A stretch of 45,127 nt of DNA from Burkholderiales bacterium (GTDB taxonomy: Bacteria > Pseudomonadota > Gammaproteobacteria > Burkholderiales > Burkholderiaceae_E): positions 1-45,127 of the forward strand of contig JAFKGG010000376.1 in NCBI GenBank assembly GCA_017307915.1. Reading direction: 5' to 3'. The position numbers were made by a program, and so were the translations under genes. Within the stretch, counting starts at the first letter, position 1, and each line of letters opens with the position of its first letter. The notes below the pieces were generated by a model. It was not told where the DNA came from. It made no database searches and saw only the letters and a program-made list of their open reading frames with translations. Shown piece after piece: positions 8,319-32,385 of the stretch.

Positions 8319-8341
8319 CGAGAACACCTTTCGGGTTGGGG

Positions 8342-16721: not shown

Positions 16722-16888
16722 CATCGAGCGTGGTGTCGATGCTCGGCGCCACTCGGGACAAGCCCGCATCGCCCGGCTTTTTGCGCCGTGCCATAATCCG
16801 CGCGCTACCGGCCCGCCCGCTGCGTGCGGCCGGCCGTTTGCCGCCGGGTATCGGCCCGCCGGCTGGGTCATTCATTCGAGGAGGCCTC

Positions 16889-17884: not shown

Positions 17885-17913
17885 GCGTTCTTGGGCGTCA
17901 CCGCACACCCATC

Positions 17914-18438
17914 ATGCGTTCGCCGCTGGACCGGATCGAACGAGCCTTCGTCGCCGTCAACCGCTGGCTGCTGATCCTGCTGCTGGCGGTGATGGCCTGC
18001 ATCGTCTTCACCAACGTCGTGCTGCGCTACCTGACCAACGAGTCGCTGTACTGGGCCGAAGAGGTGGCGCGTCATCTGATGGTTTGGCTGACCTTCGTCG
18101 GCGCCGGCCTGGTGCTGCGTTTCGGTGGCCACATCGCGATCGAGAATCTGCACAACGTGCTGCCGGGCCGTACCGGGCAATGGCTGCGTGCGGTGATCGC
18201 GGCCGGCTTGATCGTGTTCTTCTCGGTGATGGCCTGGCAGGGCGCGGTCTACGCCAACCTGATGCGCTTCCAGACCACCTCGGCCACCGAGATCTCGTTC
18301 GGCTGGATCTATCTGGCACTGCCGCTGGGTTTCGGGCTGCTGATCGTGCACCTGTTGCTGGTCGTGCGGCGCTACGTGATCGAGCGGCGTTTCATCGAAT
18401 CCTCCGAAATGGACGCCGAAGCGGCGGCAACGCTGTGA
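17914..18438 (+). CDS. dctQ: TRAP transporter small permease, DctQ family
   Basis: The 174-residue membrane protein has four hydrophobic helices (WLLILLLAVMACIVFTNVV, LMVWLTFVGAGLVLR, AVIAAGLIVFFSVMAW, LALPLGFGLLIVHLLLVV) and the family motif EEVARHLMVWLTFVGA. It starts 29 bases after dctP and ends about 60 bases before dctM. It forms the small subunit that scaffolds the DctM channel in the inner membrane. Confidence 0.92.
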   Translation: MRSPLDRIERAFVAVNRWLLILLLAVMACIVFTNVVLRYLTNESLYWAEEVARHLMVWLTFVGAGLVLRFGGHIAIENLHNVLPGRTGQWLRAVIAAGLIVFFSVMAWQGAVYANLMRFQTTSATEISFGWIYLALPLGFGLLIVHLLLVVRRYVIERRFIESSEMDAEAAATL

Positions 18439-18499
18439 GCGGTGCCGGCGCACGCCTTCGCTGCAAGGGCGTGAGCACTCTCATGGCAGGCGGCCATCC

Positions 18500-19786
18500 A
18501 TGGCGCTGACGCTGTTCATCGCCGGCATCGTGCTGCTGGCCATTGGCGTGCCGATCGCCTTCGCGCTGGCGATGGCCGCGTCGATCGCGGTGGCGGTCGG
18601 CGGCCGCTATCCGCAGATCGTCGTCTTCAAGGAAATGTTCACCGGCCTGGACAGCTTCCCGCTGATGGCCGTGCCGTTCTTCATCCTGGCTGCCGAGCTG
18701 ATGAGCGGCGGCGCACTGACGGCGGTGCTGTTACGCTTCGCGGCGCAGTTCGTCGGCCATCTGCGCGGCGGACTGGGCTACGCCAACGTGCTGTCGCTGA
18801 CGATGTTCTCGGGTATCTCGGGCTCGGCGATGGCCGACGTGGCCGGCCCCGGCGCGATGATGACGCGGATGATGGAAAAAGCCGGCTACGACCGCGACTA
18901 TGCGGCCGCGCTCACCGCCAGTACGGCGATCGTCGGTCCGATCATTCCGCCATCGATCATCATGATCATCTACGCGCTGCAGGACGAGCGCGTCTCGGTG
19001 GGCGCGCTGTTCATCGCCGGCTTCGTGCCCGGCGCGCTGATCGCGCTGGCGATGTCGGCCACCAACTGGTGGATCTGCCGGCGTCGCAACTATCAGTCGA
19101 CCGAGCCGCGTCCGTCGGCGCGCGAAATGCTGATCAACACCTGGCGTGCGCTGCCGGCACTGCTGTTGATCGTGCTGATTCTGGTCGGCATCCGTTTCGG
19201 CTTGTTTACGCCCACCGAGGCCTCGGTGGTGGCGGTGTTCTACGCGCTGATCTGCGGCAAGTGGATCTACCGCACGCTGAAGTGGCAGGCGGTGCCGTCG
19301 ATCCTGGCGCGCTCGGCGCTGCTCACCTCGGCCGTGCTGCTGATCGTCGGTGCCTCGGCTGCGTTCGCCTGGGTGTTGACGATCGAGCGCATTCCGCAGT
19401 TTCTGGCCGAAACGCTGGTGAGCTGGCAGATGTCGCCGCTCGTGTTCATGTTCGCGGTGAACGTGCTGCTGCTGCTGTTCGGCATCTTTCTGGAGCCGCT
19501 GCCCGGTGTGATGATCCTGGTACCGATCCTGGCGCCGATCGCGGGATCATTGGGCATCGACGCGCTGCATTTCGCGATCGTGGTGATCTTCAACCTGACG
19601 CTGGGCATGATCACGCCACCGGTCGGCGGGCTGTTGTTCGTCACCTCGGTGACGACCAAGGTCGGCATGACGGCGCTGGTGCGGCAATTGCCGCCGTTCC
19701 TGCTCGCGCACTTGCTGGTGCTGGTGTTGCTGACGCTGTTCCCGATCTTGTCGAACGGCTTGCCGCACCTGCTGGGCTTCAAGTAA
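18500..19786 (+). CDS. dctM: TRAP transporter large permease, DctM family
   Basis: The 428-residue polytopic protein has the DctM pattern: a first helix beginning MALTLFIAGIVLLAIGVP, FFILAAELMSGG, the conserved FSGISGSAMADVAGPGAMM loop, a second half with GPIIPPSIIMIIYAL, and LGMITPPVGGLLFV late in the protein. It is the Na+-coupled channel subunit completing the dctPQM operon. It is convergent with the gamma-glutamyltransferase-family gene, separated by 65 bases. The transporter may supply a carboxylate to the neighbouring catabolic operon, although it lies on the opposite strand. Confidence 0.93.
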   Translation: MALTLFIAGIVLLAIGVPIAFALAMAASIAVAVGGRYPQIVVFKEMFTGLDSFPLMAVPFFILAAELMSGGALTAVLLRFAAQFVGHLRGGLGYANVLSLTMFSGISGSAMADVAGPGAMMTRMMEKAGYDRDYAAALTASTAIVGPIIPPSIIMIIYALQDERVSVGALFIAGFVPGALIALAMSATNWWICRRRNYQSTEPRPSAREMLINTWRALPALLLIVLILVGIRFGLFTPTEASVVAVFYALICGKWIYRTLKWQAVPSILARSALLTSAVLLIVGASAAFAWVLTIERIPQFLAETLVSWQMSPLVFMFAVNVLLLLFGIFLEPLPGVMILVPILAPIAGSLGIDALHFAIVVIFNLTLGMITPPVGGLLFVTSVTTKVGMTALVRQLPPFLLAHLLVLVLLTLFPILSNGLPHLLGFK

Positions 19787-19851: not shown

Positions 19852-21396
19852 TCAGCATGCGAACGCGACGGCCTGGCGGCGCGCATCGGCAGCCGCCTCG
19901 ATGAAGCCGGCCGGGGTCTGCCGCGCCAGCTTGGCCGAACCGAAGTAGAACTCGTGCATCGAGTTTTCCACCACTGCCATCCCGTGCTGGCGCAGGCTTT
20001 CGGCCACCGCCGGTGACAGACCCGCTTCGAGCAGCACTTCGCCATCGCGGCTCAGGCTCCAGCGCGGCCGCGCCACGACTTCGCCCAGCGGTACGCCGGG
20101 ATCGGCGCAGGCCGCCAGAACCTGCACGCCGGTGGTGGTCTGGCTGACGCCGCCGGGCGAGACGCCGGCCAGCCAGCAGCCGTCGGCTTGCTGCACCAGA
20201 TACGGATTGAGCGTATGCGATGGCCGCTTGCCCGGCGCGATGCAATTGACCGACCCAGGCTCGGTCGAAAAATCGAAGGCCCGATTGTTCATCAGAATGC
20301 CGGTGCCCGGGTCGACGCAGCCGCTGCCGAATGGCTGGAACACGCTTTGCAGCATGGCCAGCGCATTGCCTTGCGCGTCGATCGCGACGATACCGCTGGT
20401 GTCGCCCGGCTCGACACGGACGCTGGCCGGCGAGACCGGCGCGCGATCGAGATGCCCGGATTCGAGCAAGGTCGGATCGACGGCGCCATGCTCCGGATCG
20501 CCGATCTCGTTCTTGAGCCGGCCGATCACCTCGGCGGCGATCCGGATGCGTTGCACCGTAAGCAAGGCCTCGTCATCGCCGGCCGTGCGCGGCAGCCGGG
20601 CCGCTGCGGCGAGCTGTGCCAGCATCAGCACGCCAACGGAATTCGGCGGCATCACATGCACGCTGCGGCCATCGAAGCGCTGGCTGCGTGGCGCCGACCA
20701 ATCGGCCTGCGCGGCAGCGAAATCGTCGGCGCTGAGCAGGCCGTCCTGGGCCCGAGCGAAGTCCAGCAAACTAGCCGCCACCGGGCCGCGATAAAAGCCG
20801 TTTTCGCCTTGCGCGGCGATGATCCGCAAGACCTCGGCGATGCGCGGCTGCGCGAAACGTTCACCGCAGCGCAGCGGCTGTCCGCCGGGCAGGAATGCCT
20901 GCGCAAATCCCGCCTGCTTGAGCAATTGGGCATCGGCGCCGGCCAGATTGCGCGCCAGCTCTTCAGCGACCACGCCGCCGTCGGTGGCGCAGTCGATCGC
21001 TTCATCGAACAAGGTGGCCCATGGCAGGCGACCGAAGCGCTCGTGCGCGCGTGCCCAGCAGCGCACCAGCGTCGGCGTGACCCAGGCTCGTGCGCCGCGC
21101 CGCGGCATGCCGGTCTCGAATAGCGCCGGATCAGCGGCGAGCGGTGCTCGGCCGCTGCCATTCAAGGCCCACAGGCCGCCCGACACAGCGTCGCGATAGA
21201 GCAGCATGCCGCAGCCGCCCAGCGAAGTGGCATGGGGCAGTGCCACCGTGAGCACGGCCGACGCGGCAATCGCGGCGTCGACCAAACCGCCGCCGCGCTG
21301 CATGGTCTGTATCGCGGCCCAGCTTGCGCGATGATGGCCGGTGGCAAACGCGAAGCGAGTGCCGAACTGGCTGCGCGGGCGCTGCGTGAAGCTCAT
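19852..21396 (-). CDS. Gamma-glutamyltransferase-family Ntn hydrolase (cytoplasmic, possible amidohydrolase)
   Basis: The 514-residue protein has the GGT fold: an early FATGHHRASWAAIQTMQRGG stretch, GGCGMLLYRD, and the autocatalytic cleavage/nucleophile site EPGDTSGIVAIDAQGNA, with Thr333 in the place of the N-terminal threonine of the mature small chain. The late GGVSQTTTGVQ motif is also present. No signal peptide is visible, unlike classical periplasmic GGT, so it probably works in the cytosol like YwrD/HpxW-type members, of which HpxW is an oxamate amidohydrolase. It is the last of nine genes in the catabolic operon, four bases after coxG. Hydrolysis of an amide produced by ring opening is the inferred role. 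Confidence 0.83.
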   Translation of the reverse strand: MSFTQRPRSQFGTRFAFATGHHRASWAAIQTMQRGGGLVDAAIAASAVLTVALPHATSLGGCGMLLYRDAVSGGLWALNGSGRAPLAADPALFETGMPRRGARAWVTPTLVRCWARAHERFGRLPWATLFDEAIDCATDGGVVAEELARNLAGADAQLLKQAGFAQAFLPGGQPLRCGERFAQPRIAEVLRIIAAQGENGFYRGPVAASLLDFARAQDGLLSADDFAAAQADWSAPRSQRFDGRSVHVMPPNSVGVLMLAQLAAAARLPRTAGDDEALLTVQRIRIAAEVIGRLKNEIGDPEHGAVDPTLLESGHLDRAPVSPASVRVEPGDTSGIVAIDAQGNALAMLQSVFQPFGSGCVDPGTGILMNNRAFDFSTEPGSVNCIAPGKRPSHTLNPYLVQQADGCWLAGVSPGGVSQTTTGVQVLAACADPGVPLGEVVARPRWSLSRDGEVLLEAGLSPAVAESLRQHGMAVVENSMHEFYFGSAKLARQTPAGFIEAAADARRQAVAFAC

Positions 21397-21400
21397 CGAT

Positions 21401-22015
21401 TCAGCGCAGCCACAGGGCGGCGAAGGCGCCCAGGAAGGCGCCGATCGCCGAGGCCAGCATTAGCCGCCACGGCGAGGCGCCGTGGGACGCGGAAGGAGCG
21501 GCAAGTCGATCGATGTGGGGGGCATGCGCGCCCGCAACGGCCGCCCCCGTGGCGCTTGCAGGCTTGCCGGCCGCGCCTTCGGCGAGCAAGCGCGACGCAT
21601 TGCTGAAGAACTCTTCCGAAAAGCGTCGGGCCGTGCTGTCGATCAAGCGCGTGCCCAGTTGCGCAAGCCGGCCGGTGATTTCCGTCTGCGCCACATAGTT
21701 CAGCTGCGTGCCGCCGGGTAGATCTTCGAGCGTTACGTTGACCACGCCGCTGGCCGAGCCGATCGCGCCGGCACTGCCGCCGCCGTGCAGCGACCAGGCG
21801 CGGCCTTCGATGACGTCGCGCTTTTCAAGTTGAACGTCGAAGCCGGCACGGATCGGACCCAGCGAGGTGGAGATGGTTGCCTCCAAGGCCTGCGGCGAAC
21901 GTTCGACGAGCCGGCTGCAGCCCGGAATGGCGCGTTGCAGGAATGCCGGGTCGTTCAGCGCTTGCCATACCGTCTGCCGATCGGCAGCGATCGTCTTGCT
22001 GCCTTCGATGTTCAT
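21401..22015 (-). CDS. CoxG-like SRPBCC protein with C-terminal membrane anchor
   Basis: The 204-residue protein begins with the CoxG/SRPBCC ligand-binding fold (MNIEGSKTIAADRQTVWQAL, then DPAFLQRAIPGC and DVQLEKRDVIEGRAWSL). A low-complexity linker of Ala, Gly and Pro leads to a single C-terminal hydrophobic helix WRLMLASAIGAFLGAFAALW. CoxG proteins accompany molybdenum hydroxylases, notably aerobic CO dehydrogenase, where they link the enzyme to the membrane and quinone pool. The same partnership is expected with the three-subunit hydroxylase encoded in this operon. ATG 22015 overlaps the preceding monooxygenase stop (ATGA). Confidence 0.85.
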   Translation of the reverse strand: MNIEGSKTIAADRQTVWQALNDPAFLQRAIPGCSRLVERSPQALEATISTSLGPIRAGFDVQLEKRDVIEGRAWSLHGGGSAGAIGSASGVVNVTLEDLPGGTQLNYVAQTEITGRLAQLGTRLIDSTARRFSEEFFSNASRLLAEGAAGKPASATGAAVAGAHAPHIDRLAAPSASHGASPWRLMLASAIGAFLGAFAALWLR

Positions 22016-23160
22016 GCGTGCGCCTCGTCCAGAGAAATGCCGGCCAGTCGCAGCCCGCGATCGGCCACGCGCATGCGATCGTTCAGGAAGCGCAGCCGGC
22101 CGAAGCTCCAAGCCACCAGGGGCCGCGCGAAATCGAGCTGCGTCGGCCACTGGCGCGTGAACCAGTCGTAACGGCACGACCAGCTCTGCGTGCGGTCGCT
22201 GATGAAGCGCACGCGTGTTTCCCATTCCCGCAGCGCCGATTCGATGCTGTTGCTGTGCCGCAGAAAATGCGCCAGCGCATAGGCATTGATCAGCGTCAGC
22301 CCGGCTCCCTGGCCCAACGTCGGCGGCAATCCGTGCGCGGCGTCGCCGAGGATCGCTACCCGGCCCATCGACCATTTCTCGCAATCGACCACGCCATAGT
22401 TGTATTGCGTCGATTCGGCTTGCGCCAGCACCTGGAACAGCGGTGCCAGCAGCGGAAAGCGGGCGCTCCAGTCGGCGACGTCGAGCGGCAGCTTGCAAGC
22501 TGCTGTGTCGGCCTGCGGCGCCACCATGTAGACGTAAGTGTGCTGCGGGCCGCTGGGCGTGACGCCGATCCTGCGGTTGCCGGACCAGTGCTCGACCGTG
22601 CGCGGTTCACGCGTGAACTCGCGCGATTCGATCAGGAAGCGGTCGATGATGGTCGGCAGCAAGCGGAAGCCAGAGCGCATCGGCAGCGAACCGCGCACCG
22701 CCGACGAGACACCATCATCGGCGGCGACGATCAGGTCGGCGCGATAGTGGCTGCCGTCGGTGAGTTTCAAACCGCCGTCGGGCGTGGCCGATTCCACCGT
22801 CGAGCGCGTGCGCACGTCGACGCCCGCAGCTAGCGCAGCGTCGCGCAGCGCTTCGATCAATACCTGGCGTGGAAACACATGCACGCGCGACAAACCGGTC
22901 AGCGCACGGCGTTGCTTGACCGAACCGTCGGCGAACTGGATTTGCGCGTAGTCGAGCTGGGTGCCATATGGAATCAAGCCATCGAAGACGCCGAGCTGTT
23001 CGAGTACCTCGATGCTGTTGTTCTTGATGTAGATGCCGGCGCCGATCTCGCGAATCTCGGCGCTGCGCTCATGCACGCGCACGCTCCAGCCGTCGCGCGC
23101 CAGCAGCGTCGCGATGGCCAGGCCGCCGATGCCGCCGCCGGCGATTTCCGCGGTTTTCAT
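22012..23160 (-). CDS. FAD-dependent aromatic monooxygenase (UbiH/salicylate-hydroxylase type)
   Basis: The 382-residue flavoprotein has the Rossmann GxGxxG (EIAGGGIGGLAIATLLARDG), the Glu ending strand two (VHERSA), the DG motif region ADLIVAADDGVSSAVR and the GD motif GRVAILGDAAHGLPPTLGQG. This is group A monooxygenase architecture, using NAD(P)H and O2 to place a hydroxyl on an activated ring. NicC, 6-hydroxynicotinate 3-monooxygenase, is of the same family and length, but I cannot assign that specificity. GGAGGT is three bases before ATG 23160, so the longer frame upstream is not used. Position between ridA and coxG in the operon suggests the second hydroxylation before ring cleavage. Confidence 0.87.
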   Translation of the reverse strand: MKTAEIAGGGIGGLAIATLLARDGWSVRVHERSAEIREIGAGIYIKNNSIEVLEQLGVFDGLIPYGTQLDYAQIQFADGSVKQRRALTGLSRVHVFPRQVLIEALRDAALAAGVDVRTRSTVESATPDGGLKLTDGSHYRADLIVAADDGVSSAVRGSLPMRSGFRLLPTIIDRFLIESREFTREPRTVEHWSGNRRIGVTPSGPQHTYVYMVAPQADTAACKLPLDVADWSARFPLLAPLFQVLAQAESTQYNYGVVDCEKWSMGRVAILGDAAHGLPPTLGQGAGLTLINAYALAHFLRHSNSIESALREWETRVRFISDRTQSWSCRYDWFTRQWPTQLDFARPLVAWSFGRLRFLNDRMRVADRGLRLAGISLDEAHA

Positions 23161-23171
23161 GCGACCTCCGT

Positions 23172-23663
23172 TCATTCCAGTTCGACGACGGCTTCCAGCT
23201 CGATCGGCATCGCGAACGGCAGCGAATTGAAGCCGACCGCGCTGCGTGCATGCACGCCGCGTTCGCCGAACACGGCGGTGAGCAGATCGGAAGCGCCGTC
23301 CATCACCTCGGGTTGGCGCGTGAAGTCGGGCGTGCAATTGACCATGCCGAACACGCGCACGACACGCTTGACGCGCGACAACTCTCCGATCTCGGCCTTC
23401 AGCGAAGCCAGCGCGCTGATCATCGCGGTGCGTGAAGCGTCCTTGCCGGCCTCGACGTCGACGTCGGCGCCGAGCTTGCCGCGATGCGTCTGCTCGGTGC
23501 CGCGAAACGGCCCATGGCCGGCGATGAACACCAGCTTGCCGGCCGTGACGGCGCCGGTGTAGTTGCCCACCGGCTTGCGTTTGGGCGGCAGCTCATGGCC
23601 GAGCTCAGCCAGGCGTTCTTCGGGCGTCTTGCCGGCCAGGGATGCGAAGGTGCTCAGGGACAT
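23172..23663 (-). CDS. RidA/YjgF-family protein (enamine/imine deaminase type)
   Basis: The 163-residue protein has the chorismate-mutase-like RidA fold signatures: GKLVFIAGHGP, the late HARSAVGFNSLPFAMPIELE with an Arg in the usual carboxylate-binding place, and IELEAVVE at the C-terminus. RidA members hydrolyse enamines and imines; several catabolic operons carry specialised ones such as 2-aminomuconate deaminase. The length is above the usual 125-130 residues because of an N-terminal extension (KTPEERLAELGHELPPKRKP). AGGAG precedes the ATG. In this operon it could release ammonia from the nitrogen-containing ring-fission product. Confidence 0.85.
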   Translation of the reverse strand: MSLSTFASLAGKTPEERLAELGHELPPKRKPVGNYTGAVTAGKLVFIAGHGPFRGTEQTHRGKLGADVDVEAGKDASRTAMISALASLKAEIGELSRVKRVVRVFGMVNCTPDFTRQPEVMDGASDLLTAVFGERGVHARSAVGFNSLPFAMPIELEAVVELE

Positions 23664-23676
23664 GGAGGTTCTCCTT

Positions 23677-24795
23677 TCAATGATTTTGTGCGGCTGACGC
23701 GCCGGCGCCGGCTTGCGCCTTGCGAGCGATCTCGACCTGTGTACGTGCACCGGCGGTGAGCAGCGCATGGATGCCGAAGGCGTCGCGCAACGCGGCTTCG
23801 TCGAGTGCCACCAGCGCGCTGCGCTCGTCGGCATCGAGCCGGAACTGATCGCAGAAGGCGGCGGCGTCTTCGACGAAGCGCCGTGCATCGGCGGCACTGG
23901 TTCGCAGCCGATAGACGGCCTCGACCAGCGGCACGCGCCGCGCCGGCAGCGCTGGATAGATCAGTGCTTGCCCTTCATCGACCGGTGGCGTGTCGAGTGA
24001 CCAGGCCAGCGTCGCGTAGGTGTGGTGCCATGAAGGTTCGAACTGAGCGGCAAACGGCACGCGCTCGCCGACCACTGCGGCCAGCATCAGCGTGGCGCGC
24101 AGTTCCAGGTTGCCGGTGACGTCGAGCTGGCGTTCGCTCAAGCCGAGCAACTGGCGCAGGTCGCCGGCTTTCATGCGCTCGAACAGCGCCCGGTCGGTGT
24201 CCACGTCGGGGTGCGGGTAGTGGCGGGTGCCCGGGTAGTGCGACATGCCGCCGCTGGCGATCAACACGGCGCGCCGGCCTAGCGAGCGCAGCGCGCGGTC
24301 CAGTGCCTGGCCGAACGCATAGCAGCGCCGTCCGCTGGGTTGGGGCGGTACGTAGGCATTGACGAAGATCGCCGTCATCGGCGTTTCGCGCGTATAGCCC
24401 ATGAATTCGTAAGGGATCGTGAACGCAGTCGGCAGCTTGGCGCTCAGCGTATAGGCCAGGTCGAAGCCCTGCGTTTCCAGCTCGGGTACCAGCGCATAGG
24501 CCAGGTCGGGGTCGAGTGCCCAATCGCCGCGATGCTTGTGCATGCCGTCGGCGCGGTCGGCGGCGTGTACGCAGAAGGCCGGTACGCTGTGCGTGACGAA
24601 GTGATCGCCATGATCGTTCGACACCACGATGATCGTATCGGGATTGCGTGCGCGGAAGTCTTCGCCGATGGCGGCCAGCTGCTGCCTGACGCGCTCGACC
24701 TGCTCGAGGTCTTCAGTCGCCGGGCGGGACAGGAATTGCGGTGCGTGCGGCACCGCCGCTGCGGCGATGATGCCGGTCTGTCGGGTCGTGCTCAA
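23677..24795 (-). CDS. LigB-LigA fusion class III extradiol ring-cleavage dioxygenase
   Basis: The 372-residue protein contains a LigB domain (residues about 8-280) with the iron ligands His17 (VPHAPQF), His62 (SNDHGDHF) and probably Glu231 (TGNLELR), and the catalytic His186 (SGGMSHYPG). A LigA-like helical domain follows (about 288-355; VEAVYRLRTSAADARRFVED and LVALDEAALRDAFGIHALL). One-chain LigB-LigA enzymes include the gallate dioxygenases. The start is taken as TTG 24795, which follows GAGGAG by seven bases and clears the upstream gene; the ATG at 24840 would overlap it by 31 bases. In an operon with a molybdenum hydroxylase and RidA the substrate may be a dihydroxypyridine-type ring, as for the mimosine-pathway PydA dioxygenase, or a carbocyclic catechol acid. 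Confidence 0.83.
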   Translation of the reverse strand: MSTTRQTGIIAAAAVPHAPQFLSRPATEDLEQVERVRQQLAAIGEDFRARNPDTIIVVSNDHGDHFVTHSVPAFCVHAADRADGMHKHRGDWALDPDLAYALVPELETQGFDLAYTLSAKLPTAFTIPYEFMGYTRETPMTAIFVNAYVPPQPSGRRCYAFGQALDRALRSLGRRAVLIASGGMSHYPGTRHYPHPDVDTDRALFERMKAGDLRQLLGLSERQLDVTGNLELRATLMLAAVVGERVPFAAQFEPSWHHTYATLAWSLDTPPVDEGQALIYPALPARRVPLVEAVYRLRTSAADARRFVEDAAAFCDQFRLDADERSALVALDEAALRDAFGIHALLTAGARTQVEIARKAQAGAGASAAQNH

Positions 24796-24809
24796 GGGCT
24801 TGCTCCTCG

Positions 24810-25301
24810 TCAATCGATGCTTGCGACATTGGCTGGGCACGGTTCGGCATGGCGCGCTGCCACGTCGAGTACTGCCTCGACCATGCCCTGGTAGCCGGTG
24901 CAGCGGCAGATGGAGCCGGCCAGCCGTTCGCGCACTGCCGTTTCGTTAAGCGCATTGCCTTCGCACAGCAGCTCGTAGGCGGCCGCGAATACGCCGGGCG
25001 TGCAATAGCCGCATTGCAGCGCGTGGTGGCGATTGAAAGCGTCGCGCAAGGCATCGGCAAGCTCGTCATGCAGGCCGTCGATCGTGCGTACTTCGGCGCC
25101 GGCACAGGCCTTGGCCAGCATCAGGCACGAGCGGCTGCATGCGCCGTCGACCAGCACATTGCATGCGCCGCACACGCCGTGCTCGCAGCCCAGGTGCACC
25201 GAATTGACCCCTTGCGCGCGCAGGAAGTCGCCCAGCGTTTCGCGGTCTTCACCGGCGATCGGGCACGCCGTGCCGTTGATGACGATGATCGGTTCGGTCA
25301 T
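24810..25301 (-). CDS. Molybdenum hydroxylase small subunit, two [2Fe-2S] clusters
   Basis: The 163-residue protein has the plant-type ferredoxin cluster C-x4-C-x2-C (GCEHGVCGACNVLVDG, with a further Cys at about 58) and the second helical-domain cluster QCGYCTPG and ICRCTGYQG. This is the standard small subunit of xanthine-dehydrogenase-family hydroxylases, passing electrons from the molybdenum site to FAD. ATG 25301 overlaps the medium-subunit stop by ATGA, ensuring stoichiometric expression. The 15-base gap to the dioxygenase gene keeps it in the operon. Confidence 0.93.
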   Translation of the reverse strand: MTEPIIVINGTACPIAGEDRETLGDFLRAQGVNSVHLGCEHGVCGACNVLVDGACSRSCLMLAKACAGAEVRTIDGLHDELADALRDAFNRHHALQCGYCTPGVFAAAYELLCEGNALNETAVRERLAGSICRCTGYQGMVEAVLDVAARHAEPCPANVASID

Positions 25302-26170
25302 GCGTGGGTCCCATGCAAGGCTTGCTCGGCGGCATCGACCAGGTTCTCGGCGTGCCGCAGCAGCGGTATCGGCGCTTCGTCGGGCAGCGCGCGGCGCAGA
25401 TCCATCAGCGCGGCTTCCACGTAGCGGGCGCGTTCGCCGGTCGAGGAGGGCCGTGCCGCGGCGCTGTCGCTTTGCCTGTTCAGCTCGGCCGCCAAGCTGG
25501 GCGCAGTCACCGGCGCATCGCCGAGCGCGCCGGCCCAGCAGTCGAAGCCATCGGTGCGGCGCACGACGACGGCCGAGGCCAGCGCATATTCGCCGGCGCG
25601 ATGGCACAGCTTGCTGCGGCCGAAGCTGAGCAAGCGCGCACGCAGCTCGGGCACCTGCACTTCGCTGACCAGTTCGTCGACGGCGCGATCGACCTCCAAC
25701 GGGCCGCGGATGAAGCGGCGCATCGGCACCTGGCGCGAGCCGCGTACGCTGTCGAGTCGCAACTGCGCATCCAGGGCGCAGAACAGCAGCGGCCAGTCGC
25801 CCTTCGGATCGGCCAGCGCCAGGCTGCCGACCACGGTGCCTTGCTGGCGGATCGGCCGGAACGCGATGCCGGCGGCATGCCTGCGCAGCAGCTCGACGAT
25901 TGGCCGCGCCGGCGTGGGCGGCAGGTCTTCGAGCTGGGCGTGGCGCACATTGGCGCCGATGCGCAAGGTGCCATCGAGGACCAGCGTATCCAGGTCGGCC
26001 ACCTTGCCGATGGCCAGCAGCACGCTGGGCCGGACCACGCGATAGCGCATCCAGGGCAGCAGCGTCTGGCCGCCGGCGAGAATGCGGCAGTCGCTGCCCA
26101 GTGCCGACAATTGCGCGAGCACGTCGGCCTGCGTGGCGCCGATGCGCAGATCGAAGGAGGGCAGTTTCAT
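25298..26170 (-). CDS. Molybdenum hydroxylase medium subunit, FAD-binding
   Basis: The 290-residue subunit has the FAD-binding signatures of the CoxM/NdhF type: AGGQTLLPWMRYR (the usual AGGTDLLP motif) near residues 36-48 and QQGTVVGSLALADPKGDWP in place of the TIGGNIANASPAGD motif. It accepts electrons from the iron-sulfur subunit and passes them to an external acceptor, here possibly the quinone pool through CoxG. Start ATG 26170 overlaps the large-subunit stop; the very long upstream frame is antisense-like read-through in the wrong frame of the large subunit. Confidence 0.92.
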   Translation of the reverse strand: MKLPSFDLRIGATQADVLAQLSALGSDCRILAGGQTLLPWMRYRVVRPSVLLAIGKVADLDTLVLDGTLRIGANVRHAQLEDLPPTPARPIVELLRRHAAGIAFRPIRQQGTVVGSLALADPKGDWPLLFCALDAQLRLDSVRGSRQVPMRRFIRGPLEVDRAVDELVSEVQVPELRARLLSFGRSKLCHRAGEYALASAVVVRRTDGFDCWAGALGDAPVTAPSLAAELNRQSDSAAARPSSTGERARYVEAALMDLRRALPDEAPIPLLRHAENLVDAAEQALHGTHA

Positions 26171-28554
26171 GATGAGGTCGATGAGCGTGCGCGCGCGTCG
26201 CTGATCCGTGCCAGCAGGTCGTCGGGGGAGATCGGCGTGCGGTCGATGTCGATGTCGAACTGGCGCAGCGCCTGGCGCACGGCATTGGCGATCGCCGCCG
26301 GCGGACCAACGCAGCCGCCTTCGCCCATGCCCTTGATGCCGAACTCGGAGATCGGCGAGGGTGTGCACAGATGGACGATGTCGATGCGCGGTACTTCGAT
26401 CGGACTGGGCAAGGCATAGTCGCCGAAGGTGACGCAAAGGGGCTGCCCCTGGTCGCTGTAGCGCATCTGTTCGAGCAGTGCCTGGCCGATGCCTTGCGCT
26501 ACGCCGCCGCGGATCTGGCCGTCGACGATCAGCGGATTGACCAGCGTGCCGCAATCCTCGGCCACCACGTAGTGAGTGAGCTTGACGAGCCCGGTGCGCA
26601 GATCGACGCAAACGCGCGCCGCATGCACGCCATATGAGAAGGTGCCGGTCTCGACGGCCGGCCGGTAGACGCCTTCGACGGTCATGCCGGGGTCGATGTC
26701 GCGCGGCAGCCGTTGCAGCTCGACCAGCGACAAGCGCGCGATGGCCCCGTAGCTGATCGATCGGCCGTCGGGGGCATGGAACGCGTCGCCGATACGCATC
26801 AGTGCCGAAGTTTCGCAATCGAGTGCGGCGCCGGCGATCCGGCGAGCCTTTTCGAGCAAGGCGCGGGCGGCCACGGCAACCGCGCCGCCGCCCATCACGA
26901 TCGAGCGCGATGCGACCGAGCCCATGCCGTAGGGCGCGCGGCTGGTGTCGCCTTGGCGGATGCGGATCGAGCCGACGTCGATGCCGGTGATCTGCGCCGC
27001 GATCTGCGCCAGCGACGTGAAATGGCCCTGGCCATGACTGAGCGTGCCGACCTCGATGACCAGGGTGCCATCGAACGACAGGCTGGCGCGTGCTGCTTCG
27101 TGGCCGTAGATCGTTGGTGAGCCGCGGCGATGCCATTCTTCGGCGCCGTGCGCGGCTTGTTCGACGTACATCGCATAGCCGATGCCGAAGCGATAGCGGC
27201 CAGTGTCTGTGCCCGCCGCGCCATCGGCTGGCGCAGGCGGCCAATGTTCGCCAACGAAATCGCGCGCCGCGCACAAGGCCTGGTCGTAGTTGCCCGAATC
27301 GTAGAGCTGCCCCGCTGCCGTGCGATACGGAAAGCGATCGGCGCTGATCGCGTTCAGGCGTCGCAGTTCGATCGGGTCGCGCCCCAGCGTCAACGCCACT
27401 TCGTCGATGATGCGCTCCATCGCGAAGCAGGCGGCCGGACGGCCCACGCCGCGGAACGGCCCGACCGGGGTTTTGTTCGTATAGACGCCGATTGCCTCGA
27501 AGCGGTAGTTGCGGATGTCGTACGGACCGAGCATGACCGTGGCAGCCATGTTCGCTTCGATCGTGCCGGTCGAGGTCTTGGCCGAATAGGCGCCGCCGTC
27601 CACCACGATCTTGGCGTCGATCGCGTGGATGCGGCCGCTGTCGTCGAACCAGGCGCTGATCTCGTGCTCGTGCTCGCGACTGTGGTTGGAGGCTACGAAG
27701 TGCTCGTACCGGTCTTCGATCCAGCGATGCGGACGACCGGTCTTCAGCGCCATCGCCGCGACCACCAGTTCTTCGGGATACAGGTTGCTCTTGGTGCCGA
27801 AGCCGCCGCCGACGTCGGGCACGATGACGCGGATATCGGATTCGGCTATCCCTACCAAATGCTCGGCGACGAAGCTGCGCAGCAGGTGCGGGCGCTGATG
27901 CGAAACGCGCAGTACCAGCTCACCGGTGGCTTGATCGACGTAGGCCAGGCAGCCGCGGCCTTCCAGCGGCGACGCTAGCAGGCGTGCCATCGAGAAACGC
28001 CGGGTCAGCTTGCGCAAGCCCTGGCTGCCCTCGAACACCGCAGCATCGCCAAATTGCCGCGCGGTGCGCATGATGACGTTCGAACTCAGGCCGGCGTGGA
28101 TCGGCGCGCTGCCTTGCTGCACTTCACGCCAGGCGTCGAGCACCACCGGCAGCGCGTCGATGTCGGGGGTCAATTCCTCGACGATGTCTTCGGCGGCGGC
28201 GCGCGTGGGGGCCGTCACGGCGGCGATCGCCTCGCCGACGTAGCGCACGCGGTCGGTGGCCAGCAAGGGCATCGGCGCGGCGTTGAAACCCTCACGCAGC
28301 AGCCGCCCGACGATCGGCACGGTCAGCGGCGCGATCTCGGCGGCGCTCCATACCTGGCTGCGATCGATCCAGGCCGGCACGTCGATGCCGAGCAGGCGGC
28401 CATGCGCCACCGGACTACGCAGGAACGCGACTTCGACGCATCCGGGCATCGTCGCGTCGGCGACGAAGCTGGAACGCCCGGCGAGGTGTCGCGCATCCTC
28501 GAGACGGGGCAGGGCTTGGCCGATCACCTGATCGGCCGGAACAGCGGCGGTCAT
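26167..28554 (-). CDS. Molybdenum hydroxylase large (molybdopterin) subunit, xanthine-dehydrogenase family
   Basis: The 795-residue catalytic subunit has the family signatures VGEAIAAV, GGGFGTKSNLYPEE (molybdopterin loop), TPVGPFRGVGRPAACFAMER and the catalytic Glu in GIKGMGEGGCVGPPAA. The active-site loop is not the AYRCSFR loop of form I CO dehydrogenase, so this is a substrate hydroxylase rather than a CO-oxidising enzyme despite its CoxG partner. Family members hydroxylate carbon next to ring nitrogen (nicotinate, quinoline, isoquinoline, purines) or aldehydes. Gene order large-medium-small differs from the cox order M-S-L. The start is 38 bases after the Bug receptor gene; no strong ribosome site is seen. 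Confidence 0.92.
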   Translation of the reverse strand: MTAAVPADQVIGQALPRLEDARHLAGRSSFVADATMPGCVEVAFLRSPVAHGRLLGIDVPAWIDRSQVWSAAEIAPLTVPIVGRLLREGFNAAPMPLLATDRVRYVGEAIAAVTAPTRAAAEDIVEELTPDIDALPVVLDAWREVQQGSAPIHAGLSSNVIMRTARQFGDAAVFEGSQGLRKLTRRFSMARLLASPLEGRGCLAYVDQATGELVLRVSHQRPHLLRSFVAEHLVGIAESDIRVIVPDVGGGFGTKSNLYPEELVVAAMALKTGRPHRWIEDRYEHFVASNHSREHEHEISAWFDDSGRIHAIDAKIVVDGGAYSAKTSTGTIEANMAATVMLGPYDIRNYRFEAIGVYTNKTPVGPFRGVGRPAACFAMERIIDEVALTLGRDPIELRRLNAISADRFPYRTAAGQLYDSGNYDQALCAARDFVGEHWPPAPADGAAGTDTGRYRFGIGYAMYVEQAAHGAEEWHRRGSPTIYGHEAARASLSFDGTLVIEVGTLSHGQGHFTSLAQIAAQITGIDVGSIRIRQGDTSRAPYGMGSVASRSIVMGGGAVAVAARALLEKARRIAGAALDCETSALMRIGDAFHAPDGRSISYGAIARLSLVELQRLPRDIDPGMTVEGVYRPAVETGTFSYGVHAARVCVDLRTGLVKLTHYVVAEDCGTLVNPLIVDGQIRGGVAQGIGQALLEQMRYSDQGQPLCVTFGDYALPSPIEVPRIDIVHLCTPSPISEFGIKGMGEGGCVGPPAAIANAVRQALRQFDIDIDRTPISPDDLLARISDARARSSTSS

Positions 28555-28591
28555 GGCAGCTTGAAGCGGCGGCGAGTCGGCAGATGGCCGC

Positions 28592-29578
28592 TCAGTTCAC
28601 GCTGATCTTGGCGCCGCGGATGATCGCGCCCCACTTGCCCGAATCCTGCCGCATACGGTCGAGCATTTCCTGCGTGCTGCCGCCGGTGGGGGCCATGCCG
28701 AGTTCGAGCAGCCGGGTACGCACGTCGGCTTGTTTCAGGATGGCGTTGATGCGCTGATTCAGATCATTGACGATGGCGTCGGGGGTCGCCGCCGGTGCCA
28801 TCAGCACGAACCAGCTCGACAGGTCGACGCTGGGCAGGCCGGCCTCGGCCAGCGTCGGTACGTCGGGCAGCGACGGAAAGCGTTGCGGCGCGGCGATCGC
28901 CAGCACGCGCAGGCGGCCGGCCTGCATCTGGCCGCGCGCCGGGCCAAGGTTTTCCATGCCGAAATCGACTTCACCGGCGGCCAGGGCCGTGACTGCCGGG
29001 CCGCTGCCCTTGTAGGGAACGTGCGTGGCTTCGAAGCCGGCATTGGCGCGCAGCCATTCGCCGGCCAGATGCAGCGTGCTGCCGGCACCGGCCGAACCGA
29101 AGTTCAAGCCATTGCTCCGGCTGCGGGCAGCCTGCAGGAACTCGCGCGTGTTCTTCGCCTTGACGCTGGGGCCGACGATCAGCAATGCCGGAACGTCCAC
29201 CAGCGGGGCTACCGGCCGCAGATCGCGCGATGCGTCATACGGCATCGACGAGTTCAGGTGTACGTTGTTGATCAGCGAAGTGGTGCCCAGCAACAGGGTG
29301 TGGCCGTCGGGCGCCGAGCGGATCACGTACGAGGTGCCGATCTGCGTGCTGGCACCCGGTTTGTTTTCCACGATGACCGCTTGTTTCAGGTCTTCGGACA
29401 GCTTCTGGGCGATCAGGCGTGCGGTGATGTCCGAGCCGCCGCCGGCTGCGAAGGGCACGACGATCGTGATTGGCTTGGCTGGGGATAGCGTCTGCGCAAA
29501 GGCTGCCGGACAGACGGCGCAGGACAGCAAGGAAACAAGCGCGGCGGTGAATTGCCTCTTGGGAAGTGTGATCGACAT
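28592..29578 (-). CDS. Bug/TctC-family periplasmic binding receptor
   Basis: The 328-residue protein has a Sec signal (FTAALVSLLSCAVCPAAFAQ) and the Bug family pattern: KPITIVVPFAAGGGSDITAR, VENKPGASTQIGT and the THVPYKGSGPAVTALAAGEV segment. Bug receptors, greatly expanded in Burkholderiales, bind carboxylates such as citrate, nicotinate, terephthalate or other aromatic acids and either feed tripartite TctAB transporters or act as sensors. No TctA/TctB genes are near, so it is an orphan receptor. It is the first gene of the nine-gene operon, with GGAG upstream, and is the best single clue that the operon substrate is a carboxylic acid. Confidence 0.93.
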   Translation of the reverse strand: MSITLPKRQFTAALVSLLSCAVCPAAFAQTLSPAKPITIVVPFAAGGGSDITARLIAQKLSEDLKQAVIVENKPGASTQIGTSYVIRSAPDGHTLLLGTTSLINNVHLNSSMPYDASRDLRPVAPLVDVPALLIVGPSVKAKNTREFLQAARSRSNGLNFGSAGAGSTLHLAGEWLRANAGFEATHVPYKGSGPAVTALAAGEVDFGMENLGPARGQMQAGRLRVLAIAAPQRFPSLPDVPTLAEAGLPSVDLSSWFVLMAPAATPDAIVNDLNQRINAILKQADVRTRLLELGMAPTGGSTQEMLDRMRQDSGKWGAIIRGAKISVN

Positions 29579-29606: not shown

Positions 29607-29622
29607 ATAAAGTATACTTTAT
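29607..29622. promoter_or_regulatory. Perfect 16-base palindrome, probable GntR/FCD operator
   Basis: ATAAAGTATACTTTAT is a perfect 16-base palindrome. FadR/FCD-type GntR proteins bind short inverted repeats with a GT-N-AC core, which GTATAC provides. It lies between the Bug-receptor gene and the divergent gntR gene in a markedly AT-rich stretch, at or just after the predicted transcription start of the catabolic operon. Confidence 0.65.
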
Positions 29623-29738: not shown

Positions 29739-30479
29739 ATGGAGCGAGACGCAGTCTCCAACATCCGCCTGCTGCCGCAGGCTCTGCCCGCACAGAACCT
29801 GCCGACGCAGGTGCAGAACGTGTTGTTCGACGCGATTCTCACCGGCATGCTGGCGCCGGGCGAACGACTGCTGGTTGATGAAATCGCCGAGCATTTCGGC
29901 ATCAGCAAGATTCCGGTGCGCGAAGCGCTCAAGGCGCTCGAAGTCAGCGGCTGGGTGCAAAGCCTGCCCCGGCGCGGCACCTACGTGACGCCGCTGACCT
30001 GGACCGAATTGCGCCAGGCCTTCGAGATGCGCCGTGTCATCGAACCCTACATTGCGCGGCGCGCTGCCGAACGCCGCTCCGAAGCGCATCTGGTCGAGCT
30101 GGAGCAACTGGTGCTCGACGGCATGGAGGCGATCCGCCGCGGCGACATCGTCGCCACCACGGCGATCAACAGCCGCTTCCATTCGGTGATCGCACAGACG
30201 GTCGACAACACGATGCTCGGCGACACGGTGCGCGACCTGGAGTTCCGGTTACGCCGCTATTTCGTTGCGGTGGAGTGGCAGCAGCGGCGCGAATCGATAT
30301 CGCAGCACCAGGCGATCTTCGAAGCGATTCGCGACCGTGACGCGGCGCGCGCCGAACGATTGACGCTGGAACACCTGGATCACACCGAATCGCTGGCGCA
30401 CGAGTCGGTCGCCCGCCATCTGGAGCCGGCCGACGCCGCCAGCAGCGAGTTCTCGTTGAACCAGGCGCCCAATCCCTGA
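29739..30479 (+). CDS. GntR-family regulator, FCD (FadR) subfamily
   Basis: The 246-residue protein has a winged helix with ERLLVDEIAEHFGISKIPVR EAL (about residues 45-67) and RRGTYVTPL wing, followed by the all-helical FCD domain, with the metal-site elements FEMRRVIEP, the NSRFHSVIAQ His and ISQHQAIFEAI His. FCD regulators sense organic acids through a bound metal and usually repress a divergent catabolic operon until the ligand appears, here the hydroxylase/dioxygenase operon. ATG 29739 is preferred over TTG 29703 because of its position after GAAGAG and family length. Confidence 0.9.
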   Translation: MERDAVSNIRLLPQALPAQNLPTQVQNVLFDAILTGMLAPGERLLVDEIAEHFGISKIPVREALKALEVSGWVQSLPRRGTYVTPLTWTELRQAFEMRRVIEPYIARRAAERRSEAHLVELEQLVLDGMEAIRRGDIVATTAINSRFHSVIAQTVDNTMLGDTVRDLEFRLRRYFVAVEWQQRRESISQHQAIFEAIRDRDAARAERLTLEHLDHTESLAHESVARHLEPADAASSEFSLNQAPNP

Positions 30480-30536: not shown

Positions 30537-31712
30537 TTACTTCGACAGCTCGCGCATCGCCCGCTCCAGCCCCTGCAGCGTCACCGGGTACATCCGGTTG
30601 TGCACGATCTGCCGGATCACGCCGATCGACTGCCGGTATTCCCAGACGCCCTCGGGCTCGGGGTTCAACCAGGCGTGCTTCGGAAAGCGTTCGAGCAGGC
30701 GGCGCAGCCAGACGGCGCCGGGTTCCTCGTTGTTGTATTCGACCGAACCGCCGGGTTGCAGCACTTCATACGGGCTCATCGTGGCGTCGCCGACGAAGAT
30801 CAGCCGGTAGTCGGGGTTGTACTTGCGCAGGATGTCCCAGGTCGGGAAGCGTTCGGCGTGGCGGCGGCGGTTGTTCTTCCACAGGAAATCGTAGACGCAG
30901 TTGTGGAAGTAATAGAACTCGAGGTGCTTGAACTCGGTCTTGGCCGCCGAGAACAGTTCCTCGGTCTGCTTGATGTGATCGTCCATCGTGCCGCCCACGT
31001 CGAGCAGCATCAGCACCTTGATCGTGTTGTGCCGCTCCGGCACCATGCGGATGTCGAGATAACCGGCATTGCGCGCCGTCGACGCGATCGTGTCGTCCAG
31101 ATCCAGCTCTTCGGCGGCGCCTTCGCGCGCGAACTTGCGCAGCCGGCGCAGCGCCACCTTGATGTTGCGCGTGCCCAGTTCGATCTGGTCGTCGTAGTCG
31201 CGATAGGCGCGCTGCTCCCACACCTTCACCGCAGTGCGGTTGCCGGCCGAGGGGCCACCGATGCGGATGCCTTCAGGGTTGTAGCCGCCGTTGCCGAACG
31301 GCGAAGTGCCGTTGGTGCCGATCCATTTGCTGCCCCCCTGGTGGCGTTCCTTCTGTTCTTCGAGCAGTTGGCGCAGGCGCTCCATCAGCTTGTCCAGCCC
31401 GCCCATGGCCTCGATCGCGGCTTTTTCCTCGGCAGTGAACTCGCGCTGCAACTGGCGTTTCAGCCATTCCAGCGGCAGGTCGATGTCGATGCCCTGAATC
31501 GCCTGCACGCCCTTGAAGTAGCCGGCGAAGGCCTTGTCGAACTTGTCGAAGTTGCGTTCATCTTTGACCAGCGTGGCGCGCGACAGATAGTAGAACTCGT
31601 CGATCGACGCGCCGATCACGTGTTCGCGCATCGCTTCGAGCAACAGCAGGTATTCCTTGATCGACACCGGCAGCTTCGAGTGGCGCAGATGCAGGAAGAA
31701 ATCGATCAGCAT
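30537..31712 (-). CDS. VWA-domain protein, CoxE-like, with degenerate MIDAS
   Basis: The 391-residue protein starts with the conserved MLIDFFLHLRHSKLPVSIKE segment of CoxE/YehP-type proteins and ends with a von Willebrand A domain. The MIDAS Asp-x-Ser-x-Ser motif is present only as VLMLLDVGGTMDD, so two serines are replaced by glycine and the Thr retained: metal binding may be altered. Partner MoxR ATPase lies two genes upstream. CoxD-CoxE pairs insert sulfur and copper into CO dehydrogenase, and related pairs remodel other metalloenzymes. The pair is widespread in betaproteobacteria, so a link to the neighbouring molybdenum hydroxylase is only suggestive. Confidence 0.83.
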   Translation of the reverse strand: MLIDFFLHLRHSKLPVSIKEYLLLLEAMREHVIGASIDEFYYLSRATLVKDERNFDKFDKAFAGYFKGVQAIQGIDIDLPLEWLKRQLQREFTAEEKAAIEAMGGLDKLMERLRQLLEEQKERHQGGSKWIGTNGTSPFGNGGYNPEGIRIGGPSAGNRTAVKVWEQRAYRDYDDQIELGTRNIKVALRRLRKFAREGAAEELDLDDTIASTARNAGYLDIRMVPERHNTIKVLMLLDVGGTMDDHIKQTEELFSAAKTEFKHLEFYYFHNCVYDFLWKNNRRRHAERFPTWDILRKYNPDYRLIFVGDATMSPYEVLQPGGSVEYNNEEPGAVWLRRLLERFPKHAWLNPEPEGVWEYRQSIGVIRQIVHNRMYPVTLQGLERAMRELSK

Positions 31713-31730
31713 GGCGTCGCCTTCAATCGG

Positions 31731-32342
31731 TTACGAGCGGGCGCCGGCGCGCGGCTGCTCCAGTTTCCAGCGCAGGTTCGAGCGAACCGCCGGCCACTCG
31801 GCCGCCACGATGCTGTACACGCAGGTGTCGCGCAGCGAGCCGTCGGGCGCGATCTGGTGCTGGCGCAGAATGCCGTCGAGCTTGGCGCCGAGCCGCTCGA
31901 TGGCGCGCCGGCTGGCCTGGTTCATGAAATGGGTGCGCAGTTCGACGGCGATCGTGTTCAGCGTCTCGAACGCATGGCCCAGCAGCAGCAGCTTGCATTC
32001 GGTGTTCAGCGCCGAGCGCTGCGCGCTGGCCGAATACCAGGTGTGGCCGATTTCCAGCCGGCGGTGCCGTGTCTCGACGTTGAAGTAGCGCGTGCAGCCG
32101 ACGATGCGATCGTCGGACAGGCGCCGCACGGCGAAGGGCAGCGCGCCGGTCTCATCGCGCATGCGCAGCGCATTGGCTACGTAGTCGTCGATCTGATCGG
32201 GGTGCGGGGCGCTGGTATACCACAGCCGCCACAGCTCGCCGTCATGCGCCGCTGCCGCCAGTGCCGGCGCATGCGAGGCGGCCAGCGGTTCGAGCTGTGC
32301 GTGCATGCCGCGCAGCGTGATCGGTTCGATCCAGTGGGTCAT
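31731..32342 (-). CDS. GNAT-family N-acetyltransferase (RimJ/RimL type)
   Basis: The 203-residue protein has the acetyltransferase fold: an N-terminal LEPLAASHAPAL, IVGCTRYFNVETRHRRLEIG and TWYSASAQRSALNTECKLLL, the acetyl-CoA-binding region, then HAFETLNTIAVELRTHFMNQ ASRRAIERLGAK. This pattern is that of the RimJ/RimL/SAT branch, which acetylates protein N-termini or small amines. It sits between the moxR-like and coxE-like genes with gaps of 43 and 18 bases, so it is transcribed with them. Substrate unknown. Confidence 0.83.
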   Translation of the reverse strand: MTHWIEPITLRGMHAQLEPLAASHAPALAAAAHDGELWRLWYTSAPHPDQIDDYVANALRMRDETGALPFAVRRLSDDRIVGCTRYFNVETRHRRLEIGHTWYSASAQRSALNTECKLLLLGHAFETLNTIAVELRTHFMNQASRRAIERLGAKLDGILRQHQIAPDGSLRDTCVYSIVAAEWPAVRSNLRWKLEQPRAGARS

Positions 32343-32385
32343 CGTGTGCGTGCCGTGCAGTGAGCGCTGCCTGCCGCCGGCAGCT

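Follow-up and report, generated by a model that had tools for sequence, protein, structure and literature searches.

A conserved nine-gene operon of a Burkholderiales bacterium as a candidate oxalyl-amide route for the degradation of an N-heteroaromatic ring

Plants and spores are sources of pyridine carboxylates, as are agrochemicals and the breakdown of tryptophan. Familiar aerobic routes for their degradation, nic and pic among them, meet at 2,5-dihydroxypyridine, which is then opened by NicX-type cleavage. Contig JAFKGG010000376.1 of a Burkholderiales bacterium (45127 bases, analysed as one entire contig and called the window here; the genome comprises 6.1 Mb in 521 contigs) carries nine co-directional minus-strand genes, recognised from open reading frame (ORF) coordinates and Pfam, which span 29578 down to 19852. 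They encode, in this order, a Bug-type receptor (Bug), the large, medium and small subunits of a molybdenum (Mo) hydroxylase (MoL, MoM and MoS), a LigB-family dioxygenase (LigB), a Rid protein, a flavin monooxygenase (FMO), a CoxG-like protein (CoxG) and a hydrolase of the gamma-glutamyltransferase (GGT) fold. Which ring would such a set of enzymes open, and which bond would the hydrolase at its end cleave?

As judged from sequence, the genes form a real, conserved operon that probably serves the breakdown of an N-heteroaromatic compound, and an oxalyl-amide mechanism is proposed for it. Tentatively, the operon may serve the aerobic catabolism of a pyridine-type ring by way of oxalyl-amide steps. 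Picolinate or another pyridine-2-carboxylate would be the most likely substrate, and a pyrimidine is considered less likely. If true, this route would assign a role to GGT-fold proteins that are currently annotated as gamma-glutamyltransferases and to a LigB group, so far without a name, that occurs in many Proteobacteria. The scheme predicts that oxalate and ammonia are formed from the ring.

The operon and its candidate ring-modifying enzymes

The nine genes are closely packed, with intergenic gaps of 37, 14, 13, 11 and 4 bases and ATGA overlaps at three junctions (MoL/MoM, MoM/MoS and FMO/CoxG), and a single transcription unit is inferred. The LigB gene starts with TTG, while an alternative GTG start is possible at 24840. 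A sequence-only reading of this DNA had already described a tightly spaced nine-gene operon; this is confirmed, 37 bases being the largest gap, and each of its gene family assignments is backed by Pfam.

Among solved structures, MoL is nearest to quinoline 2-oxidoreductase (QoR, 1t3q_B) with 491 bits, CO dehydrogenase being next with 371. The MoL motifs GMGEGG and PFRGVGRP align with GMGESA and AYRGVGFT of QoR, and the active-site Glu, presumably the catalytic residue, is retained in the first of them. In the same alignment, the Cu-binding Cys of form I CO dehydrogenase is not present in MoL. QoR-type Mo hydroxylases oxidise the carbon beside the ring nitrogen. For a CoxG-type protein anchoring a Mo hydroxylase at the membrane, a precedent is found in the available part of one report (PMC11962113).

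The FMO is nearest to 2-methyl-3-hydroxypyridine-5-carboxylate oxygenase (MHPCO, 3alm_A, 197 bits) of vitamin B6 degradation, whose substrate is of the 3-hydroxypyridine carboxylate type; the next other enzyme is tropone 2-monooxygenase, with 75 bits. Tyr44, Arg197 and Tyr209 of the FMO align with Tyr54, Arg211 and Tyr223 of MHPCO and are kept in 10/10 aligned sequences. Together with Tyr82, these MHPCO residues are substrate contacts. MHPCO itself both hydroxylates its substrate and opens the ring, whereas the operon encodes a separate LigB dioxygenase for ring opening.

LigB is distant from every solved enzyme, and the best match by sequence is MhpB, a dihydroxyphenylpropionate dioxygenase. 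Its predicted model (predicted local distance difference test, pLDDT, 88.9) matches DesB, LigAB, MhpB and 2-aminophenol dioxygenase at a Foldseek probability of 1.00, the best being DesB, a gallate dioxygenase. The model aligns to DesB across both domains with a root-mean-square deviation of 21 Å, and the domain arrangement therefore differs. Residues H20, H65, H189 and E234 are invariant in 20/20 aligned sequences, its own included; by alignment, H20, H65 and E234 are taken to be the 2-His-1-Glu metal site and H189 the catalytic His (SGGxSH). By domain, fold and metal-site residues, the protein can be assigned to the class III extradiol dioxygenase family. The earlier designation as a 'LigB-LigA' dioxygenase stands for its LigB part. 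Its LigA part has weak sequence support, as PF07746 gives E=0.0051 in the window's LigB and 0.0005 in the ortholog at L047, both below the cut-off. As a separate observation, LigB-family matches occur at 16 places in the 6.1 Mb of the same genome, L002-L008 among them, and the match at L003 (C432) has five TGA stops within the matched stretch.

The GGT-fold hydrolase and the conserved neighbourhood

The protein encoded at the end of the operon has a predicted model with a pLDDT of 85.6 and a GGT fold match. Its nearest solved relative by summed bits is HpxW (5hft, 'Crystal structure of HpxW'), with chains of 95.9 and 89.4 and a sum of about 185 bits vs 154 for 2nlz and 147 for E. coli GGT. The nucleophile, Thr333, is present in 11/11 aligned sequences, its own included. 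The PLSSM motif of canonical GGT, in which SS is presumably responsible for gamma-glutamyl binding, is missing from this protein; PSHTLNP stands in its place, and H394 and T395 are found in 11/11 aligned sequences. The NCBIfam g_glut_trans score of 248 bits is under the cut-off of 357.85, and the protein has only two matches in its own genome (E<=1e-10). In the accessible part of its source, HpxW is described as an oxamate amidohydrolase (PMC5270733). The likeness to this protein of uric acid degradation lies in the GGT fold and the Thr nucleophile; the difference is that the substrate of HpxW is free oxamate and not a ring-cleavage product. The sole HpxO match in 369 genomes of the class (E<=1e-100), L120, has no GGT match in 19.9 kb.

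A scan of 84,980 species genomes with a two-clade LigB alignment gave 149 confirmed loci, of which the best 80 were analysed. Locus genes were picked from six-frame ORFs with a codon-composition picker and phmmer/hmmsearch; small or unusual genes may be missed in this way. The top 13 loci (L037-L049), a group whose boundary was drawn after it was seen that GGT ends there, have LigB identities of 52-72%. They come from Variovorax, Verticiella, Hydrogenophaga, Achromobacter, Paracandidimonas, Nitratireductor, Bordetella, Pigmentiphaga and relatives, Caballeronia and Pusillimonas. Variovorax soli NBRC 106424, Verticiella sediminum DSM 27279 and Paracandidimonas soli DSM 100048 are carriers available in culture. 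The loci are not independent, since L044, L045, L046 and L048 are close relatives and, farther down, L099 and L105 are almost identical.

A GGT-family gene lies at most 2.3 kb downstream of LigB in all 13 top loci. The profile of the operon's own GGT scores more than 780 bits in 12 of them and only 159 in L042, which has another, remote lineage; when all loci with at least 51% LigB identity are counted, the figure is 13/17. The order Bug-MoL-MoM-MoS-LigB-(Rid)-FMO-CoxG-GGT is kept in 8/13 (L037, L038, L041, L043, L044, L045, L046 and L048). A search for the same neighbourhood, which had been suggested earlier, has thus shown that the gene order recurs in other genera, and for this reason the arrangement is taken to be more than chance. 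At L039, no MoL or Bug was found at the operon site. L049 has a different MoL together with CoxG, LigB and GGT, and no FMO was found there, while L042 comprises LigB, FAH, the remote GGT and Rid. At L040 (12818-16617) and L047 (4252-8111), a Rieske oxygenase, a ferredoxin-type reductase and a Gfo/Idh dehydrogenase adjoin LigB and GGT, and neither a Mo hydroxylase nor an FMO was found. A Rieske oxygenase with a reductase and a dehydrogenase is the type of set that produces a diol in phthalate degradation. That these two loci keep LigB and GGT despite the swapped entry enzymes is expected if both entries yield the same diol.

The system is patchy, since LigB relatives at E<=1e-40 occur in 14/399 genomes of the same order, its own genome included, and in none of 17 same-genus and 19 same-family genomes. 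In the plasmid collection, 59 records had a LigB match (E<=1e-10), all below 60% identity and none covering 80%.

The Rid protein scores 23.6 bits with NCBIfam TIGR00004 against a cut-off of 106.25 and is, for that reason, not placed in the archetypal RidA group. Within 8.2 kb of LigB, a Rid-family gene is present in 10/13 top loci and a FAH hydrolase in 8/13; in eight of them the Rid nearby is of another, shorter type. Among full-flank loci, FAH is present in 7/12 and Rid in 9/12 of the top group vs 1/29 and 3/29 of the other loci, a comparison whose p-values are descriptive, as the group border was set after the GGT result. The presence of FAH and Rid fits ammonia release and acylpyruvate cleavage; for the kpi pathway, a like proposal exists with 3-formylpyruvate.

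A second lineage of GGT is associated with a distant LigB clade of about 40% identity, mostly from Alphaproteobacteria. Here, in seven loci (L077, L099, L104, L105, L110, L112 and L114), an aldehyde dehydrogenase gene and a GGT-family gene come after LigB. In L081 and L089 an aldehyde dehydrogenase follows LigB with no GGT match, and most other distant loci have neither. In a 25-sequence GGT tree, six distant-clade sequences form their own group (100/100), separate from the operon group of 11 (100/100); the L042 GGT and E. coli Ggt sit on long branches, and their placement is uncertain. The three aspartate dehydrogenase genes that were scanned are all over the NCBIfam cut-offs, and such a gene lies within 10.5 kb in 6/6 full-flank distant loci with GGT vs 3/23 without (Fisher p 0.00018), a count in which L099 and L105 are almost identical; with L112, a short contig, the figure is 6/7 GGT loci overall.

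Aspartate dehydrogenase reduces iminosuccinate. An N-oxalyl aminofumarate formed in the distant clade would yield oxalate and iminosuccinate, which would feed aspartate dehydrogenase, and these runs of LigB, aldehyde dehydrogenase and GGT represent a probable related pathway ending in L-aspartate. For N-oxalyl aminofumarate to arise, the ring carbon next to the nitrogen must bear a carboxylate, and it is from this that picolinate is guessed; the hint of a picolinate-type ring may be said to derive from the related clade and not from the genes of the window itself.

The proposed pathway and its rivals

In the proposed pathway, the Bug receptor would bind the carboxylate in the periplasm. The QoR-type Mo hydroxylase, for which CoxG would be the membrane anchor, would hydroxylate the carbon beside the ring nitrogen, and the MHPCO-type FMO would hydroxylate the adjacent carbon to give a vicinal diol of the 2,3-dihydroxypyridine type (5,6-dihydroxypicolinate, if the substrate is picolinate). 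LigB would then cleave the ring at the C-C bond on the distal side of the diol, leaving the ring nitrogen as an N-oxalyl enamide, a substituted oxamate. The chemistry suggests this outcome, since a ring that is hydroxylated next to its nitrogen and again one carbon further on should, after distal extradiol cleavage, retain the nitrogen as an oxalyl amide. The GGT-fold enzyme may split this amide into oxalate and an enamine, from which Rid may release ammonia by hydrolysis, leaving a 2-oxo acid (2,4-dioxobutanoate in the case of picolinate). Finally, a FAH-family hydrolase, which is found beside the operon in other genomes, could split the 2-oxo acid into pyruvate and formate. With an oxalyl amide as the product, it would make sense that LigB is accompanied most constantly by an HpxW-like hydrolase.

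A wider scheme is regarded as rather doubtful. In it, LigB cleavage of a vicinal diol would give an N-oxalyl enamide in both clades, GGT-fold hydrolases would have been recruited at least 2 times for oxalate release, and the rest would be handled either by Rid and FAH (oxo acid and ammonia) or by aldehyde dehydrogenase and aspartate dehydrogenase (L-aspartate). Picolinate would pass through 5,6-dihydroxypicolinate, bypassing 2,5-dihydroxypyridine. In the window, no aldehyde dehydrogenase or aspartate dehydrogenase match is present.

Several observations weigh against the oxalyl-amide pathway. HpxW is about 30% identical to the GGT-fold protein over the large chain, and the fold search does not favour it, its chains ranking 45 and 49, a position that is attributed to the chains being split. 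The position of the second active-site His of MhpB, which we take to be His115, is occupied by Thr126 in LigB (18 Thr and 2 Tyr among 20 sequences), and in the alignment MHPCO Tyr82 has no counterpart in the FMO. A Rid of the operon's type adjoins LigB in only 2/13 top loci (L043 and L047, after LigB), and the window has no FAH match. GGT was not found in L050, L051, L052 and L054, which have 51-53% LigB identity (the L052 contig ends at LigB); L050 retains a Mo hydroxylase and an FMO with no GGT found, and the GGT step is therefore not universal. Oxalyl-CoA decarboxylase (TIGR03254) is over its cut-off in 2/13 genomes, its own being negative (the set comprises its own genome with L037-L041, L043, L044 and L046-L050; L042 and L045 were left out), as compared with 7/61 relatives. 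On these counts, no oxalate sink of this kind is linked to the system.

L050, with its Mo hydroxylase, LigB and FMO, also speaks for the strongest rival, an unlikely one, namely that the operon does serve an N-heteroaromatic compound, but that the GGT-fold protein and Rid are unrelated to the ring-cleavage product and the true hydrolase is encoded elsewhere. A GGT-family gene adjoining a Bug-type receptor in another context (L124) agrees with it. However, across the 13 top loci no other gene accompanies LigB as constantly as GGT, and a second GGT lineage accompanies the distant LigB clade.

Less likely again is a PydA-like route, in which LigB would cut a 3,4-dihydroxypyridine (or its carboxylate) beside the nitrogen to give an N-formyl imine or amide, the GGT-fold enzyme being the deformylase. 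QoR-type Mo hydroxylases, as noted above, would give a 2-hydroxypyridine instead, and the similarity to HpxW favours an oxalyl over a formyl amide. The available part of one report does lend this route some footing: in Rhizobium sp. TAL1145, PydA carries the annotation of a 3,4-dihydroxypyridine dioxygenase and belongs to the same Pfam family as LigB (PF02900), and a FAH protein is proposed for the final step of the kpi route (PMC7356986).

About equally improbable is a bicyclic substrate of the quinoline type, which would be converted to a 2-oxo-quinoline, hydroxylated in its benzene part and cut there by LigB, with the GGT-fold enzyme opening the lactam or a side-chain amide. The nearest relatives of MoL (QoR) and, by sequence, of LigB (MhpB) would suit this idea, but the FMO resembles a monocyclic pyridine enzyme far more than any other solved enzyme, and no hydratase or aldolase for the later steps is found among the nine genes. 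The least probable is a carbocyclic aminoaromatic substrate resembling 2-aminophenol, which LigB would convert to 2-aminomuconic semialdehyde with Rid as the 2-aminomuconate deaminase: AmnE, the deaminase of the modified meta-cleavage pathway, is described as a Rid-family enzyme in the part of the source available (PMC6742747) and 2-aminophenol 1,6-dioxygenase is among the LigB fold matches, but the nine genes include no aldehyde dehydrogenase, decarboxylase or hydratase, and both the conserved GGT-fold hydrolase and the QoR-type Mo hydroxylase would be left unexplained.

The oxalyl-amide pathway can further be set beside the systems already described. PicA, the dehydrogenase of the pic route, is presumably a Mo enzyme. 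According to the accessible text on pic in Alcaligenes faecalis JQ135 and Bordetella bronchiseptica RB50, PicA forms 6-hydroxypicolinate and the monooxygenase PicB adds a second hydroxyl (PMC10142695), so that, as proposed for the operon, a dehydrogenase and then a monooxygenase place two hydroxyls on the picolinate ring. The difference, within the same text, is that the 3,6-dihydroxypicolinate is decarboxylated to 2,5-dihydroxypyridine, which is then handled by a 5,6-dioxygenase, a deformylase, an amidohydrolase and an isomerase. NicX marks another known neighbour system (PMC7910607). By Pfam and NCBIfam, none of the nic/pic set (NicX-type dioxygenase, deformylase, maleamate amidase and maleate isomerase) is among the nine genes.

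The earlier statement that nic and pic use NicX-type and not LigB-type cleavage holds for those two, but a LigB-family dioxygenase of a pyridine diol, PydA, has already been proposed. The likeness extends from PydA, as a PF02900 enzyme acting on a pyridine diol, to kpi, which has a FAD monooxygenase, a hydrolase and a FAH protein. On the other side, the available part of that paper names no GGT-fold hydrolase and lists a single MopB pseudogene but no intact Mo hydroxylase, the amide cleaved is an N-formyl one, and KpiC is an amidohydrolase-family protein (PMC7356986). The amn system for 2-aminophenol shares with the operon the Rid-family deaminase of modified meta-cleavage and a dioxygenase that is a LigB fold relative; its substrate is carbocyclic, and neither a Mo hydroxylase nor GGT is described in the accessible part of the source (PMC6742747).

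No description of the nine-gene set, or of 5,6-dihydroxypicolinate cleavage, was recognised among the papers listed from the open literature, a weak negative drawn from titles and abstract openings with most subscription journals and the primary pic papers outside. Within this incomplete scope, the earlier remark that no known pathway has this exact gene set still applies. Its broader claim, an N-heteroaromatic operon with amide cleavage and ammonia release, gains support from the nearest solved relatives and the conserved neighbourhoods.

The regulator and the neighbouring genes

Both the divergent GntR gene and an operator-like element, as reported earlier, are present (Table 1). The element is a perfect palindrome, and palindromes of at least 16 bases arose in 11/5000 base shuffles of the same 182-base region. 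Bordetella genomosp. 4 (L043) has the identical 16-mer in its equivalent region, and L041 a near variant. Its GTATAC core occurs in 7/7 regions with a divergent GntR (the window, L037, L039, L040, L041, L043 and L047) and in 8/11 regions compared. A promoter-like -10 (TATACT) on the operon strand lies inside the palindrome. The GntR protein may act as a repressor which, by binding ATAAAGTATACTTTAT, would control the operon.

Table 1. Coordinates of the operon genes, the regulator and the candidate operator in the window
Feature	Coordinates	Strand	Basis
Bug/TctC-type periplasmic solute receptor	28592..29578	-	PF03401 4.1e-65
Mo hydroxylase large subunit (MoL)	26167..28554	-	Pfam; nearest solved relative quinoline 2-oxidoreductase
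Mo hydroxylase FAD (medium) subunit (MoM)	25298..26170	-	PF00941 1.3e-32
Mo hydroxylase 2x[2Fe-2S] (small) subunit (MoS)	24810..25301	-	PF01799 9.3e-23, PF00111 2.3e-05
LigB-family class III extradiol dioxygenase, LigA-like C-terminal domain; candidate ring-cleavage enzyme	23677..24795	-	PF02900 6.9e-28
Rid (YjgF/RidA superfamily), candidate enamine/imine hydrolase	23172..23663	-	PF14588 6.3e-23, PF01042 3.6e-11
Flavin monooxygenase (FMO, FAD_binding_3)	22012..23160	-	Nearest solved relative MHPCO
CoxG-like protein, hydrophobic stretch at C-terminus; candidate Mo hydroxylase membrane anchor	21401..22015	-	PF06240 1.1e-21
GGT-fold N-terminal-nucleophile hydrolase; candidate ring-cleavage-amide hydrolase	19852..21396	-	PF01019 1.5e-96
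FCD-type GntR regulator, divergent from operon	29739..30479	+	PF07729 5.9e-26, PF00392 4.6e-16
Perfect 16-base palindrome ATAAAGTATACTTTAT, GTATAC core; candidate GntR operator	29607..29622		Self-complementarity

Beyond the GntR gene lie a VWA gene (CoxE-like, slightly below the Pfam cut-off; 30537-31712, -) and an AAA ATPase gene (32386-33276, -). This MoxR-VWA (CoxD/CoxE-like) pair (30537-33276) was considered as maturation genes for the Mo enzyme, but it had no match (E<=1e-8) in the best 80 of 149 LigB loci and is therefore taken to be an unrelated neighbour. The molybdenum cofactor synthesis genes moeA and moaA are found in the same window (42667-43938 and 44084-45127, both -).

Outside the operon, about 7 kb past its GGT end, is a gene absent from the earlier note (11590-12666, +). 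Its best solved match is a NicX-type 2,5-dihydroxypyridine 5,6-dioxygenase (175 bits, E 1.3e-50), and it has no Pfam or NCBIfam match at E 0.001. A Rieske oxygenase gene (10263-11546, +) directly precedes it, and divergent to the two are genes for an ABC importer (ATPase and NMT1-type receptor) and an alpha/beta hydrolase (5613-9776, -). Together, 10263-12666 and 5613-9776 give the impression of a further N-heteroaromatic cluster of the window, separate from the operon. A complete TRAP transporter (DctP, DctQ and DctM; 16730-19786, +) is encoded tail to tail with the operon, and 65 bases separate it from the GGT stop. The window also encodes a PilY1/PilC-type pilus tip protein (37976-41923, +) and a TfpB-type pilus assembly ATPase (14841-16652, +).

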